From Tsukamurella sp. PLM1 (GTDB lineage Bacteria; Actinomycetota; Actinomycetes; Mycobacteriales; Mycobacteriaceae): a DNA stretch of 64,000 bases. This document shows, piece by piece, positions 42,630 through 47,566 of the stretch. How positions within the stretch are numbered: the first letter of the stretch is position 1; each line of letters starts with the position of its first letter. The notes under the pieces were generated by a model, which saw nothing but the letters and a program-made list of their open reading frames with translations, ran no database searches and was not told where the DNA came from. The stretch lies in the NCBI RefSeq assembly GCF_023168325.1, contig NZ_AP025688.1, positions 3,100,001 through 3,164,000 on the forward strand, in the 5' to 3' direction. The position numbers were made by a program, and so were the translations under genes.

Positions 42630-43061
42630 GTGACGGCCGACGCAACGGTGAACGACGTGATGCTGCGTCGTCCGACGGTGCACCCCGCGGACGTCACCAT
42701 CGGTGCCGCGCGGGCCGCTCTCGAGGCCGCCCCCAAGCTGCACCTGCTCCTGCTGATCCGCGACGGCCGGGTGATCGGGACGCTCGACCGGGGCGATCTT
42801 TCGGATCCGGCCCTGGCCGGCGACTCCCCCGCGTTGGCGCTGGCGGAGCTGGACGGCCGCACCGTCGCGCCGGACGTCCCCGCGGAGCGATTGCGGAAAG
42901 ACATGCTCGCCACCGGGATCCGGCGGCTCGCGGTGGTCGACGACGAGATGCGCCTGCTCGGCCTGCTCTGTCTCAAGTCGAGCGGCACCGGTTTCTGCTC
43001 CGACGACGGCGTCGCCGACATGCGGCGCGCGCGATCAGCCTCGAACGTCCCCCGTCCCTAG
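42630..43061 (+). CDS. CBS-domain protein
   Basis: 143-residue protein consisting of a pair of CBS motifs. The first is VNDVMLRRPTVHPADVTIGAARAALEA (residues about 7-33, in parts) with LLLIRDGRVIGTLDRGDL; the second is RKDMLATGIRRLAVVDDEMRLLGLLCL. CBS pairs bind adenosine nucleotides and act as regulatory modules; no catalytic partner domain is attached. The C-terminal CSDDGVADMRRARS tail is short and polar. Target unknown. Confidence 0.85.
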   Translation: MTADATVNDVMLRRPTVHPADVTIGAARAALEAAPKLHLLLLIRDGRVIGTLDRGDLSDPALAGDSPALALAELDGRTVAPDVPAERLRKDMLATGIRRLAVVDDEMRLLGLLCLKSSGTGFCSDDGVADMRRARSASNVPRP

Positions 43062-43081
43062 CGCCGCGTACCGGTCTCGTC

Positions 43082-44026
43082 TCAGGCCGCCATGAGTCGC
43101 TGCATGTCGGCGAGGACGCGGTCGGCGGCCACGGTGGAGGCGTTGAGGAACCACGGGTCGACGTCCACCTCGAAGGCGCGTCCCCGCGAGACCACCGGCA
43201 GGTCCCGCCACAGCGCCGCCTCGGTGAAGTCGCCCGACGATCCGGGGAACGAGTAGAACAACCAGTCCGCGTCGAGCAGCGCCACCTGTTCCAGCGACAG
43301 GGGACGGCTCGCAGTGTCCGAGAACCGCTGCGTGGCAGGCCGGGTCAGGCCGGCGTCGGTCGCCACGATGCTCGCCAGCGCGAGCGTGCCGAAGTACAGG
43401 TACTGGTCCCCTTCCCGCGCACGAGCGAGACCGTCTCGAAGTTCCGCGCGACGCTCCCCACGCCTTAGCGCGCCCCTCGTACGCGGCCAGCACGCCCGCG
43501 CCCTCGCCGGACTTGCCCAGCGCGTCCGCGACGATGGCGAGATCGTCCTTGAACCGCTCGGAGCCACCGTTGGTGCGGACGGTGGGCGCGATCTTCGCGA
43601 GTTGCTCCGCGAGGCTCTTCTCCGCCCGATTGTTGGACAGGATCAGATCGGGCTTCAGGCCGGCCACCTTCTCGAGGTCGGGGCTCATCCGCTGCCCCAC
43701 CACCTGGATCGCGTCGAGGTCGTACCGGTCCCCGAACGCCTTCCTGAGATACTCGGGCACGCCTCTGCTATCGGTCGACTCCGACACCGCGACCGCCAGA
43801 CCGACGGGGACCACGCCCAGGGCCAGGCAGTGGTCGAGATGCCCGGTCGACAGCGCCACCACGCGCTTCTGCGCGCCGATCACGCTGCCGGAGCCCGACG
43901 GTGCCGCCCCTCCGTCGGGCCGTCGCCGCACGCGGCGAGCAGCGCGGCCCCACCAAGGGCGGCCGCGCCGCCGAAGAACCGCCGCCGGCTGACCCCGCGT
44001 CGACTACCCATCGCTTCCATGACCAT
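43082..44026 (-). CDS. Siderophore-binding Tat lipoprotein, FecB/FepB type (frameshifted)
   Basis: Periplasmic-binding lipoprotein for an iron-siderophore complex. From ATG 44026 the N-terminus has SRRRFFGGAAALGGAALLAAC, in parts: a twin-arginine signal with lipobox LAAC. The mature part has VVALSTGHLDHCLALGVVPVG, LKPDLILSNNRAEKSLAEQL and, after the breaks, DQYLYFGTLALASIVATDAGL. Bases are missing near 43915-43925 and twice at 43430-43470. An IdeR-like iron box covers the promoter, supporting an iron role. The P450-fusion and Rieske genes lie directly upstream on the same strand. Confidence 0.85.
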
Positions 44027-44099: not shown

Positions 44100-45149
44100 C
44101 TAGATCCCCTGCTCGTCTTCCACCATCGCCATCAGGATCCGACGCGCGCGCACGGCCGCCCGGTCCGCCTTGACGTTGACGTAACGCCGCGGGATCGGGT
44201 CCTGGTCGAGGCACTGCTGCACGGTCTCGAGGACGGCGATGTCCCGGTCGGCCATCGCGTGGAAGACCTCGATCAACCGCTCGCCGATGTCGGGCGAGAC
44301 CGACGGGCCCCGCCACGAGATCTGCAGGAAGACATCGGTGACTCCGGAGGACTGGGGCGTGAAACCGTGCGTCCGCACGAGTTCCAGCTCCGGACCGGTC
44401 GCACCGATGATGGTGTAGGTCTGCTTGTGCAGGCCCGGCGTCACGAACGTGCCCGTCTCCGTCCGGCCGAACGATGCGGACGGGTTGGTATGGTCCAGCC
44501 CGGTGACAGTGGCCTCCCACGGAGCCAGCGGCGCCTCGGGCAGTTCGCGCCTGTATGACACTGAAAGCTCGGAGACCTCGACGTCCTCCAGCGGGGGCAG
44601 CGCCTCGATGCCGGGCGGCACCATCTCCGGATGCATTGCGAAGACGTTGGTCAGGTCGAGGTAGTGCTCGTGGAGCAACTGGAGGTTGGCGGCCACCTCG
44701 CGCCGTTCCCCGACACTCGCCCAGCCGTCATCGTGCAACCACGGCGTCGCCGGCGGTGGCCGCAGCCGCTCACCGCCGGGCGTTCCCGCCCAGATCCAGA
44801 CGAAGGGTCCGCGCTCGACGACAGGGAAGGCTCGCACCCGCGCGGACGGGGGCGGGTTGTCCTGAGACGGCACGCTCACCCAGCGTCCCGTCGCGTCGTA
44901 GGTGCAGCCGTGGTAGCCGCACACGATGTAGTCGTCCTCGCGGCGTCCCGCCGAGAGCGGGTAGGGCCGGTGCGCGCAGCGGTCCTCCAGCGCGGCGATC
45001 GCGCCGTCGGAAAGGCGGTAGAGCACGACCGGTGTATCGAGGACGCGCCGCGCAGTGAATCCGTATCCGACCTCGGCGGTGGTGGCGACGACGTACCAGC
45101 AGTCCCTCGGATAGTCGGCGGTGGGTTGGTTCCGAGCGATGTCGTTCAT
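44100..45149 (-). CDS. Rieske non-heme iron oxygenase, VanA-like
   Basis: Oxygenase component of a Rieske system (vanillate demethylase/phthalate type), 349 residues. The 2Fe-2S ligands are Cys58, His60, Cys77 and His80 (CAHRPYPLSAG, CGYHGCTY). The mononuclear-iron region reads HEHYLDLTNVFAMH (160-173). The usual motif is (D/E)NxLDL(S/T)HxxxxH, so Asn and His appear exchanged. ATG 45149 overlaps the stop of the P450-reductase fusion by 4 bases, so the two are translationally coupled. The reductase/ferredoxin arm of that fusion is of the class that normally serves VanA-type oxygenases. Substrate unknown. Confidence 0.9.
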   Translation of the reverse strand: MNDIARNQPTADYPRDCWYVVATTAEVGYGFTARRVLDTPVVLYRLSDGAIAALEDRCAHRPYPLSAGRREDDYIVCGYHGCTYDATGRWVSVPSQDNPPPSARVRAFPVVERGPFVWIWAGTPGGERLRPPPATPWLHDDGWASVGERREVAANLQLLHEHYLDLTNVFAMHPEMVPPGIEALPPLEDVEVSELSVSYRRELPEAPLAPWEATVTGLDHTNPSASFGRTETGTFVTPGLHKQTYTIIGATGPELELVRTHGFTPQSSGVTDVFLQISWRGPSVSPDIGERLIEVFHAMADRDIAVLETVQQCLDQDPIPRRYVNVKADRAAVRARRILMAMVEDEQGI

Positions 45150-47566
45150 ACGTCCAGCACCAGCTTCTTCGACAGGGAGCGGGAAACGCAGAGCATGATC
45201 GTTTCGCCGCGCTCCCTTTCCGCCTTGGACAGGATCGAGTCACGGTGCTCGGGTGTGCCCTCGAGCACGTCGGCCTCACAGGTGCCACAGATCCCTTCCA
45301 TGCAGGATCCGAGGACGTCGACGCCGGCCTTCTCGACCGCGTCGAAGATCGTGGTGCCTTCCGGGACGGTCACGGTCACTCCCGAGCGCGAGCACACGAC
45401 TTCGAACGAGTCGAGCGCATCCTCGGATGCCGCGACCTCCTTGGCCGCGAAGCGCTCTATGTGCAGGCTGCCCTCGGGCCACGGCGCGCACGCCTCCTCC
45501 ACGGCGTCGAGGAAGGCGCCCGGGCCGCAACAGTAGACCACGGTGTCCGGCGTAGGCTTCCCGAGCTCGGCCGCCAGGTCGATCCGGCCGTTCTCGCTGC
45601 TCGGCCAGATCGTGACCCGGTCGGAGTCCTCGAATCGGTCCAGGAACGCCATCGACTCGCGTGAGCGGCCGCAGTAGAGCAGGCTCCACTGCGCCCCGCG
45701 CGCCTCGGCGGCCTCGATCATCGGGAGAATCGGGGTGATCCCGATGCCGCCCGCGACGAATCGGTAGTTCGTGGAGGCGACCAAGGGGAAATGATTGCGC
45801 GGACCTCGCACGCGGACCGTCGCACCCTCCGTCAGCTTCTCGTGGACGTACGCCGAGCCACCTCGGCTGTCCGGGTCGCGAAGGACGCCGATCTTCCACG
45901 ACGACTCGTCCGAGGCGCTGCCGCACAGCGAGTACTGCCGCGTCAGCGACGGCTCCAGTAGAAGGTCGATATGGGCCCCGGCAGTCCACGCCGGGAGCGG
46001 TGCACCCGCAGGGGCGCTGAGGGTGAGCTCGACGACCCCGTCCGCCACCTCGCGCCGGCTCGCTACCTGTACCTCGACCTCGGTCTCGGTGGTGATGGTC
46101 TCTTCGCGGGAGCGACGAATCGGTGGACGAGCGGGAGTCCGTGCCGCGGCGGGCTGCACGGCCCGTTCGCCGCGGGGGCGGGCCTTCTGCCCGATCGGCG
46201 TCAACGTGACCATCATCTTCGTGTAGCCGCGGACGAAGTTCGACTGGAGGTATTCCGGCTCCTCGACCACTTCGATGTCCTCGAACCGCGCGAGCAGTTC
46301 CTCCCAGAGGATCCGCAGCTGGAGTTCCGCCACCCGACTGCCCATGCAGCGGTGCACGCCGATACCGAACGAGAGATGGTGGCGGGCGTTGTGCCGGTCG
46401 ATGATGAATTCGTCCGGATTCTCGAAGGTGCGCTCGTCCCGGTTCGCCGACGCGTACCACATGACGACCTTGTCGCCCTTGCGGATGAACTGACCGTTAA
46501 GGACGGTGTCCTTCTTGGCGATGCGCCGCATGTAGGCCAGCGGCGTCTGCCAGCGGATGTTCTCGTGGACGAACTTCGGGATCAGGCTGTGATCGGCTTT
46601 GAGCCGGTCGAACTGGTCCGGGAACAGGTTCAGTGCGTACACGCCGCCCGACATCGAGTTGCGGGTGGTGTCGTTGCCGCCCACGACGAGCAGGATCAGA
46701 TTGCCGAGGAACTCCATCGGCCGGTTGATCAGGTCCTTGGTGTCCTCAGACATCTGCATCAAGGTGATCAGGTCGTATCCCGGCTTTTCGCCCGCCTTGA
46801 GGCGCGCCGCCTTGTCGTGCCACAGGTCGCTGAAGCTCTTCGCCATCTCGGCGACGCCCCTGTACATCTCGTCCATGTCGACGTCGCCGCCGGTGGCTGC
46901 GGCGCTGGCACCTGCCAGCTCGGTCCAGCGCACGAGCTTGCGCCGTTCCGCATAGGGGAAGTCGAGCAGGGTGGCGAGCATCCGGGACGTCAGCTCGATG
47001 CTGACCCTGTCCACCCAGTCGAAGGGTTCGTTCACCGGCAGGTCGTCGAGGACCTCTTGGACGCGCGACCGGATCAGGCCCTGCATCTCCTCGAGGTTCT
47101 GCGGTGCGACGACTCCCTGCACCGCTCCGCGCTGCACGTCGTGGCGTGGCGGGTCCATCGCGATGAACATCTCGATGTCCAGGCCTTCCGGCGGTACGCC
47201 GATGACGATCTGCGGCTCGGCCGAGTAGGTCTCGAAGTCGCGGTCCACCGTGACGATGTCGTCGTACCGCGTGACCGACCAGTACGGCCCGAATTCGCTC
47301 GACGCCCGGAAGTGGACCGGCGCCTCGTTGCGCAGGCGCTCGAAGTAGGGGCGCCACTGGCCCTGCCGCCACATGAACGGATTGCTCATGTCGATCTCGG
47401 TCAGCGCCACCGCGTCGACGTCGGGGATCTCCTGCTCGACGAAGTCGGGCTGCCGGTCACCCAGAGCCAGTTTCTTGGCCTTCTGGAAGAGGTGCAGGCC
47501 CTGGACCTGCCTCTCCATCGGGATGGTCGCCTGGGCCTTGTTGATGACCCGGTCGAGGAAGTTCAT
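45146..47566 (-). CDS. Natural CYP153 P450-reductase-ferredoxin fusion
   Basis: Self-sufficient monooxygenase of 806 residues. Residues 1-458 are a CYP153-family P450, the group that hydroxylates alkane or fatty-acid termini: EFGPYWSVTRYDDI (91-104), MFIAMDPPRHD (133-143), I-helix VGGNDTT (295-301), ExxR Glu335-Arg338 and heme loop FGIGVHRCMG with Cys407. A 35-residue Ala/Pro/Arg linker follows. A phthalate-dioxygenase-reductase-type domain (about 494-710) has RQYSLCG for flavin and AGGIGITPIL for NAD. The C-terminal 2Fe-2S ferredoxin has Cys755, Cys760, Cys763 and Cys793. ATG 47566 is preferred; an in-frame start at 47608 is weaker. The domain order is that of P450RhF (CYP116B), but the heme domain is CYP153. 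Confidence 0.93.
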   Translation of the reverse strand: MNFLDRVINKAQATIPMERQVQGLHLFQKAKKLALGDRQPDFVEQEIPDVDAVALTEIDMSNPFMWRQGQWRPYFERLRNEAPVHFRASSEFGPYWSVTRYDDIVTVDRDFETYSAEPQIVIGVPPEGLDIEMFIAMDPPRHDVQRGAVQGVVAPQNLEEMQGLIRSRVQEVLDDLPVNEPFDWVDRVSIELTSRMLATLLDFPYAERRKLVRWTELAGASAAATGGDVDMDEMYRGVAEMAKSFSDLWHDKAARLKAGEKPGYDLITLMQMSEDTKDLINRPMEFLGNLILLVVGGNDTTRNSMSGGVYALNLFPDQFDRLKADHSLIPKFVHENIRWQTPLAYMRRIAKKDTVLNGQFIRKGDKVVMWYASANRDERTFENPDEFIIDRHNARHHLSFGIGVHRCMGSRVAELQLRILWEELLARFEDIEVVEEPEYLQSNFVRGYTKMMVTLTPIGQKARPRGERAVQPAAARTPARPPIRRSREETITTETEVEVQVASRREVADGVVELTLSAPAGAPLPAWTAGAHIDLLLEPSLTRQYSLCGSASDESSWKIGVLRDPDSRGGSAYVHEKLTEGATVRVRGPRNHFPLVASTNYRFVAGGIGITPILPMIEAAEARGAQWSLLYCGRSRESMAFLDRFEDSDRVTIWPSSENGRIDLAAELGKPTPDTVVYCCGPGAFLDAVEEACAPWPEGSLHIERFAAKEVAASEDALDSFEVVCSRSGVTVTVPEGTTIFDAVEKAGVDVLGSCMEGICGTCEADVLEGTPEHRDSILSKAERERGETIMLCVSRSLSKKLVLDV

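Follow-up and report, generated by a model that had tools for sequence, protein, structure and literature searches.

A natural fusion of a CYP153 P450 with a phthalate dioxygenase reductase-type module in Tsukamurella, and its Rieske neighbour with an altered iron site

Natural fusions of cytochrome P450 enzymes of the CYP153 family to their redox partners have been described before. According to the available sections of a 2022 review (PMC8918992), Nie et al. reported in 2014 three CYP153 proteins that carry P450, ferredoxin reductase and ferredoxin domains, from two strains of Gordonia polyisoprenivorans and from G. araii, and numerous further CYP153 fusions have been found by BLAST. We analyzed a window of 64,000 nucleotides from Tsukamurella sp. 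PLM1 (contig NZ_AP025688.1, positions 3,100,001 to 3,164,000), in which one gene encodes a CYP153 heme domain, a reductase of the phthalate dioxygenase reductase (PDR) type and a plant-type 2Fe-2S ferredoxin, and is followed by a gene for a Rieske protein. The CYP153-reductase-ferredoxin architecture is therefore not new, and the novelty that the original prediction attached to a natural CYP153 fusion falls to the Gordonia precedent. The 2014 Gordonia proteins are described as having the same order of CYP153, ferredoxin reductase and ferredoxin. As far as we found they are known only from bioinformatics, and the available sections of the review do not mention a Rieske neighbour for them. Fusions homologous to that of the window are present in Gordonia malaquae, Gordonia oryzae and Gordonia jinhuaensis.

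The CYP116B enzymes (P450RhF and CYP116B46; structures 6kbh and 6laa) share with the Tsukamurella protein the order of heme, flavin mononucleotide (FMN)/NAD(P)H and 2Fe-2S domains, a PDR-type tail and an RSR motif. They differ in that their heme domain lies outside CYP153 and in that their reductase falls, though not firmly, elsewhere in the reductase tree. The CYP153A protein of structure 5fyf, a terminal hydroxylase that works with separate partners and lacks a fused reductase, is the best solved relative of the heme domain and can be aligned with it over residues 5–457 (E 7.4e-208, 697 bits); we take its organism to be Marinobacter. For T. tyrosinosolvens PS2, the available sections of one source (PMC6486250) report a homologue of a P450 alkane 1-monooxygenase. 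In a literature search, with most subscription papers outside its reach, we found no natural CYP153 fusion that had been studied biochemically, and neither a P450–PDR–Rieske operon nor a swap of the iron-ligand triad.

The fusion gene occupies window positions 45146–47566 on the minus strand, where translation yields a single stop-free frame of 806 amino acids; the plus-strand reading of the same interval is interrupted by stops. The 806-codon frame and its domains had been recognized correctly from the letters alone, but the strand and the overlapping downstream Rieske gene were absent from that account. All three motifs given for CYP153 (MFIAMDPPRHD, VGGNDTTRN and FGIGVHRCMG) are present in the translation. 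An alternative upstream TTG start would give 820 amino acids, and the ATG at 47566 is matched by a counterpart in 8/8 relatives examined. Pfam identifies p450, NAD_binding_1 and Fer2 domains, and the reductase half (approximately residues 498–806) matches 6kbh and 6laa, both of them P450 fusions, as well as the PDR 2pia, in agreement with the predicted PDR-type reductase and plant-type 2Fe-2S tail. Heme ligand Cys407, the I-helix sequence VGGNDTTRN and the ExxR residues Glu335 and Arg338 are invariant in 9/9 aligned fusions, as are the ferredoxin cysteines Cys755, Cys760, Cys763 and Cys793. The PDR-type domain carries the motifs RQYSLCG, GGIGITP, CGRSRESMAF and CGP, and its flavin is expected from the family to be FMN. 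Its coenzyme motif is RSR, like that of 6kbh and 6laa; 2pia has TRD. The RSR motif may be what decides for NADPH over NADH. The layout is that of class VII, with heme, flavin/nicotinamide and ferredoxin modules in a single chain and their motifs intact, as expected of the self-sufficient arrangement that had been proposed. The predicted Ala/Pro/Arg linker is there as well, although it varies in sequence and length (34–62 amino acids between flanking motifs in 24 listed fusions, 22 of them distinct).

The fusion is natural, as had been supposed, and it recurs. Full-length copies are found in 27 of the 401 genomes of the family Mycobacteriaceae that were sampled, in 7 of 31 genera; at E ≤ 1e-245 there were matches in 29 of these genomes, two of which (G065 and G080) are unfused P450s. 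A sample of 396 genomes across the phylum contains two full-length fusions, both from the same family as the window. In a scan of named genomes, at least 11 carry a full-length fusion among the 80 loci listed, several of which also belong to the sampled sets: Tsukamurella pseudospumae, the three Gordonia species named above, Nocardioides, Marmoricola, Williamsia, Jongsikchunia, two Rhodococcoides and one Rhodococcus. Ratios of nonsynonymous to synonymous substitution rates (dN/dS) between the window and six relatives are 0.065–0.131 for the heme domain and 0.119–0.161 for the reductase, compared with 0.59–1.40 for the linker; those of the downstream Rieske gene are 0.155–0.243. Both halves of the fusion are under purifying selection, and the protein consists of two constrained modules on a loose tether. 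An assembly error or a chance open frame, the former having been named as a ground for doubt, is ruled out by this recurrence in independent assemblies together with the constraint on both halves.

The heme half belongs to CYP153. In a quick P450 tree, 21 fused rows form one clade (Shimodaira-Hasegawa-like approximate likelihood ratio test, SH-aLRT, 99) nested within 90 CYP153 rows (100), as had been predicted from the motifs. Five loci that we label CYP116B-type from layout and identity, which is not a family assignment, have heme domains 27–29% identical to that of the window, and CYP116B-type rows lie outside a 112-row group containing CYP153 (SH-aLRT 97; midpoint root). Branches beyond CYP153 are long and the branching order there was not used. 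Membership of the heme domain in CYP116, which had been put forward as the finding that would tell against the assignment, is ruled out by this tree.

The fused reductase seems to derive from an operon in which genes for a P450, a PDR and a Rieske protein follow one another. PDR genes were collected by searches with the fusion, the reductase and the Rieske protein. Dereplication reduced the 158 rows to 90, and the genes were assigned to classes according to their same-strand neighbours within 700 bp. In a careful tree of 57 rows selected from this set, all 17 fusions fall into a single clade (support 100/99), which groups at 96/96 with 16 operon-kind PDRs; a Rieske gene adjoins 14 of these PDRs. 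The CYP116B-type rows fall outside this joint group, and four of the five form a clade of their own; a quick tree of all 90 rows is concordant. Unfused operon PDRs are 56–65% identical to the fused reductase, versus 43–49% for the five CYP116B-type loci. The CYP116B-like architecture that had been proposed stands as regards domain order, but the nearest relatives of the reductase are operon PDRs, with a borderline topology test discussed below.

Other fusions of a P450 to a PDR-type reductase exist in the collection. In a metagenome-assembled genome of Actinomycetota (L102:7992-11268), a non-CYP153 P450 carries a PDR-type reductase in the same chain, and the protein encoded next is Rieske-like, with the triad lost and Cys in place of the second Rieske His. 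A single origin of the CYP153 fusions and L102 is ruled out, with an approximately unbiased (AU) test of their reductases as one clade giving p 3e-5. The L102 fusion is therefore a separate event. At a further locus (L211/L249:5376-7523) a P450 and a PDR share one open frame; the P450 lies outside CYP153, and the reductase does not group with those of the CYP116B type.

Unfused operons in the order P450–PDR–Rieske are found at L124, L220, L222–L225, L228, L241 and L245, where the ends of the PDR and Rieske domains are 6–56 bp apart. Their P450s fall outside CYP153 in the P450 tree, that of L223 being nearest to CYP125, CYP124 and other non-CYP153 families. Across 301 family genomes there were 27 Rieske matches (E ≤ 1e-60) in 23 genomes; a PDR adjoins all 27, and a same-strand P450 lies within about 1.1 kb of 23, ten fusions included. 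Among 296 genomes of the class, nine Rieske matches (E ≤ 1e-50) occur in eight genomes, three of them shared with the family survey, with a PDR beside 9/9 and a same-strand P450 beside 7/9. The four family matches whose PDR-Rieske pair stands without a P450 on a stretch of about 14 kb are in G016, G065, G070 and G080. A draw of 236 family genomes overlaps the 301 without being identical to it; within this draw, these same four are the sole carriers of unfused CYP153s 74–80% identical to the window's heme domain (next best, 68%), and the P450 tree, in which G070 was not included, places the proteins of G065, G016 and G080 as the nearest relatives of the fusions. With moderate confidence, this co-occurrence suggests that a partnership between CYP153 and a PDR-Rieske pair predated the fusion. 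Around L124, L220, L125 and L225 lie genes for PucR-type regulators and for AMP-binding (acyl-CoA ligase-like), FMO-like, GMC oxidoreductase-like and aldehyde dehydrogenase proteins, and these scanned neighbours give no clear substrate.

The ATG of the downstream Rieske gene overlaps the TGA of the fusion gene (ATGA). A predicted model, a fold match and Pfam confirm the VanA/DdmC-type fold and the VanA_C domain of its 349-residue product. The Rieske cluster ligands CxH..CxxH are retained (C58, H60, C77 and H80). At the mononuclear site the protein has His162, Asp165, Asn168 (normally His), His173 and Asp303. A gap-free alignment to DdmC pairs His162 with N154, Asp165 with D157, Asn168 with H160 and His173 with H165, and in the family alignment Asp303 stands at the third-ligand position; the iron ligands of DdmC are presumably H160, H165 and D294. 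The canonical 2-His-1-carboxylate triad is thus absent, its positions holding Asn168, His173 and Asp303. Relative to both DdmC (3gb4) and the guaiacol demethylase GdmA (7qwt), the protein has Asn168 in place of the first triad His, and His162 in place of the Asn at DdmC position 154.

We aligned 99 Rieske proteins (54 after dereplication) and scored DdmC positions 154, 157, 160 and 165 and the third ligand. The pattern N-D-H-H-D occurs in 18 rows and H-D-N-H-D in 16, namely in 12/12 fusion neighbours and four operon proteins. Less frequent are H-D-D-H-D (4, one with an altered Rieske ligand), H-D-Y-H-D (3), H-D-N-Y-D (3), H-D-H-H-D (2) and H-D-Y-Y-D (1), and seven rows are multiply changed. 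Within the clade of the window's protein, the canonical triad is lost in 34/36 rows and the first His replaced in 32/36, while the genes remain linked to a PDR and, in most cases, to a P450. On a tree of 43 rows, His at 154 requires one change, His at 160 two and His at 165 three. The two proteins that have His at the old position as well as at the new one (L184 and L185) are possible intermediates of the ligand swap. In five others (L195, L201, L203, L206 and L102), CxH..CxxC replaces CxH..CxxH and the mononuclear-iron triad is absent. Canonical Rieske proteins also occur near a PDR and a P450 (L213, also listed as L251, and L214), so proximity to a P450 is not by itself coupled to triad loss.

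In both Rieske trees (quick, 54 rows, 12 from the fusion side; careful, 43 rows, 10 from the fusion side, with 11 omitted that were mostly near-copies or long branches), the fusion-side proteins form one clade that is sister to those of P450–PDR–Rieske operons. The Rieske and PDR trees are concordant, and the two genes therefore appear to have travelled together. Judging from these trees, the Rieske gene was probably already present at the time of fusion and later lost in some fusions; its gain by part of the fusions would be a less simple alternative. An initial count had pointed to relaxed retention after fusion, with the Rieske gene kept in 14/16 unfused but 7/17 fused rows (Fisher p 0.010). 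That count was biased because most unfused rows came from the Rieske-protein search. At places found by other searches, the gene is kept in 5/7 unfused versus 12/27 fused cases (p 0.40), and since this unbiased count shows no difference, the proposal that the Rieske gene becomes dispensable after fusion was withdrawn.

Table 1. Coordinates of the fusion gene's parts and the downstream Rieske gene in the window
Feature	Positions	Strand	Evidence
CYP153 heme domain, residues 1–458	46193..47566	minus	motifs, 5fyf match, P450 tree
Ala/Pro/Arg-rich linker, ~residues 459–496	46079..46192	minus	poor conservation, linker dN/dS
PDR-type flavin + nicotinamide domain, ~residues 497–712	45431..46078	minus	matches to 6kbh, 6laa, 2pia, 7ylr; borders approximate
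Plant-type 2Fe-2S ferredoxin domain + stop codon	45146..45430	minus	Pfam Fer2
VanA/DdmC-type (dicamba monooxygenase-type) Rieske protein, 349 aa	44100..45149	minus	Pfam Rieske + VanA_C, alignments, model + fold match

We consider it reasonably probable that the fusion is a self-sufficient CYP153 whose reductase was captured from a P450–PDR–Rieske operon, with the Rieske protein serving as an accessory. The observations behind this account are the domain layout, its recurrence, the purifying selection, the closest relatives in the trees and the loss of the canonical triad. The enzyme is most likely a self-sufficient terminal hydroxylase of a class VII-like type. NAD(P)H would reduce the flavin of the PDR domain, from which the C-terminal 2Fe-2S cluster would accept electrons singly, and the tethered heme would use them to hydroxylate the terminal carbon of an alkane, a fatty acid or a similar chain. 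We infer these cofactors, this electron path, the reaction and the kind of substrate, terminal hydroxylation in particular being suggested by membership in the CYP153 family. As to the order of events, which we likewise reconstruct, an actinobacterial CYP153 would have been joined to the reductase of such an operon and would have displaced the resident P450, which belonged to another family. The Rieske protein would descend from a VanA-type oxygenase whose iron site was altered, and most likely it now assists the P450-PDR pair, its probable role being that of an electron relay or a docking scaffold.

Several results weigh against this account. Constraining the fusion and CYP116B-type reductases into one group costs 21 log units, yet the AU test gives p 0.061 with five CYP116B-type rows and p 0.039 with four, such that a joint clade is disfavoured but, in a borderline case, not firmly rejected. 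The Rieske gene is absent directly behind 15/27 fusions. In two genomes with such fusions (G020 and G021), there is no Rieske match genome-wide at E ≤ 1e-60, and the Rieske protein is therefore not needed there. The full-length predicted structure is poor (mean predicted local distance difference test score, pLDDT, 46.8 from a 9-row alignment). The four genomes with the split state are drafts in which the CYP153 gene and the PDR-Rieske genes are on separate contigs, and G016 and G070 belong to the same genus. Moreover, the nearest unfused CYP153 of G016 has a Fer2 ferredoxin gene and a reductase gene of its own beside it, so co-occurrence with a PDR-Rieske pair need not mean partnership.

The main rival to an accessory role is a rebuilt iron site. 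The Rieske protein would then be a working oxygenase in which His162 replaces the lost His at 168, and the fused PDR would supply this second oxygenase as well as the heme, giving two oxidations of one substrate. Asp165, His173, Asp303 and the four Rieske ligands are indeed kept in 12/12 dereplicated fusion neighbours, His at DdmC position 154 arose by a single change, L184 and L185 carry both His residues as an intermediate would, the gene is under purifying selection, and PDR is by name the donor of a Rieske oxygenase (2pia, phthalate dioxygenase reductase). Nonetheless, relatives in the clade lose His173 (Tyr in 4/54), several triad residues or Rieske ligands, a pattern that resembles relaxed catalysis, and over half of the fusions lack the gene directly behind them; we regard the rebuilt site as doubtful, if worth serious attention. 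A role of the PDR in serving the Rieske protein can be pushed further, such that free ferredoxins mainly feed the heme, the tethered reductase chiefly serves the Rieske protein in trans, and the fusion is a device for co-regulation. The regular PDR-Rieske pairing, a PDR being beside 27/27 family Rieske matches, fits such an arrangement. However, the same 15/27 fusions keep the reductase frame with no Rieske gene directly behind, and the CYP116B46 layout feeds a heme according to the available sections of one source (PMC7260179), which makes this version very improbable.

A different rival concerns descent. The fusion could go back to a CYP116B-like enzyme in which a CYP153 took the place of the original heme domain, leaving a reductase of RhF type. 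The shared domain order, the RSR motif common to 6kbh and 6laa, the standing of these two as best solved relatives of the reductase and the borderline AU test would all be explained. The careful tree instead groups the reductase with those of PDR-Rieske operons at 96/96, and its identity to unfused operon PDRs exceeds that to the CYP116B-type loci (56–65% versus 43–49%); a heme swap thus appears unlikely, although less so than the co-regulation device. Capture of an operon reductase can also be placed in a wider frame, which we put forward tentatively, with slightly less belief than doubt. Actinobacteria would have a three-part system composed of a P450 from one of several families (CYP153 among them), a reductase of the PDR type, and a Rieske oxygenase with a dismantled or rewired triad. 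This third part would be a P450 relay, a scaffold, a regulator or an oxygenase with a new ligand set, and fusion of P450 and reductase would have occurred separately in CYP153 and in L102. A Rieske gene stands beside the fusion in some or all loci of both kinds.

Some features of the locus and its relatives are of more local interest. In Gordonia malaquae (L045:8001-11464), the fusion is 93% and the Rieske gene 89% identical to those of the window, compared with only 85% for nrdE and 69% for trmH, which makes recent horizontal transfer likely. A plasmid collection contains a 94% match to the fusion in T. tyrosinosolvens NCTC13231. In that record (NZ_LR134451.1, L043), named plasmid 9, nrdE adjoins the fusion as it does on the window's chromosome-sized contig, and the record may be a piece of chromosome. 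Among genera the upstream nrdE and other neighbours of the fusion vary, and no substrate clue was obtained from them. The source genome is one contig of 4.39 Mb with a listed completeness of 83.88%; the fusion is its only CYP153 among 13 matches at E ≤ 1e-10, and a separate PDR-like reductase, 52% identical, is encoded elsewhere. Near the locus, a periplasmic-binding-protein gene (43035–43931, minus strand) is in two frames relative to an intact relative, from a frameshift in the genome or in the assembly.

Omega-hydroxy acids and diols are produced with engineered CYP153-reductase chimeras. The natural fusions of 27 sampled genomes, which selection has shaped, are alternatives to these and offer linkers of many lengths for comparison. 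Since one family holds both split and fused states of what appears to be a single system, it provides a test of how P450s change redox partners and of the benefit of tethering. The altered Rieske protein behind the fusion, possibly a P450 helper of a new kind, raises the question of whether a Rieske oxygenase has been turned into such a helper or has had its iron site rebuilt.

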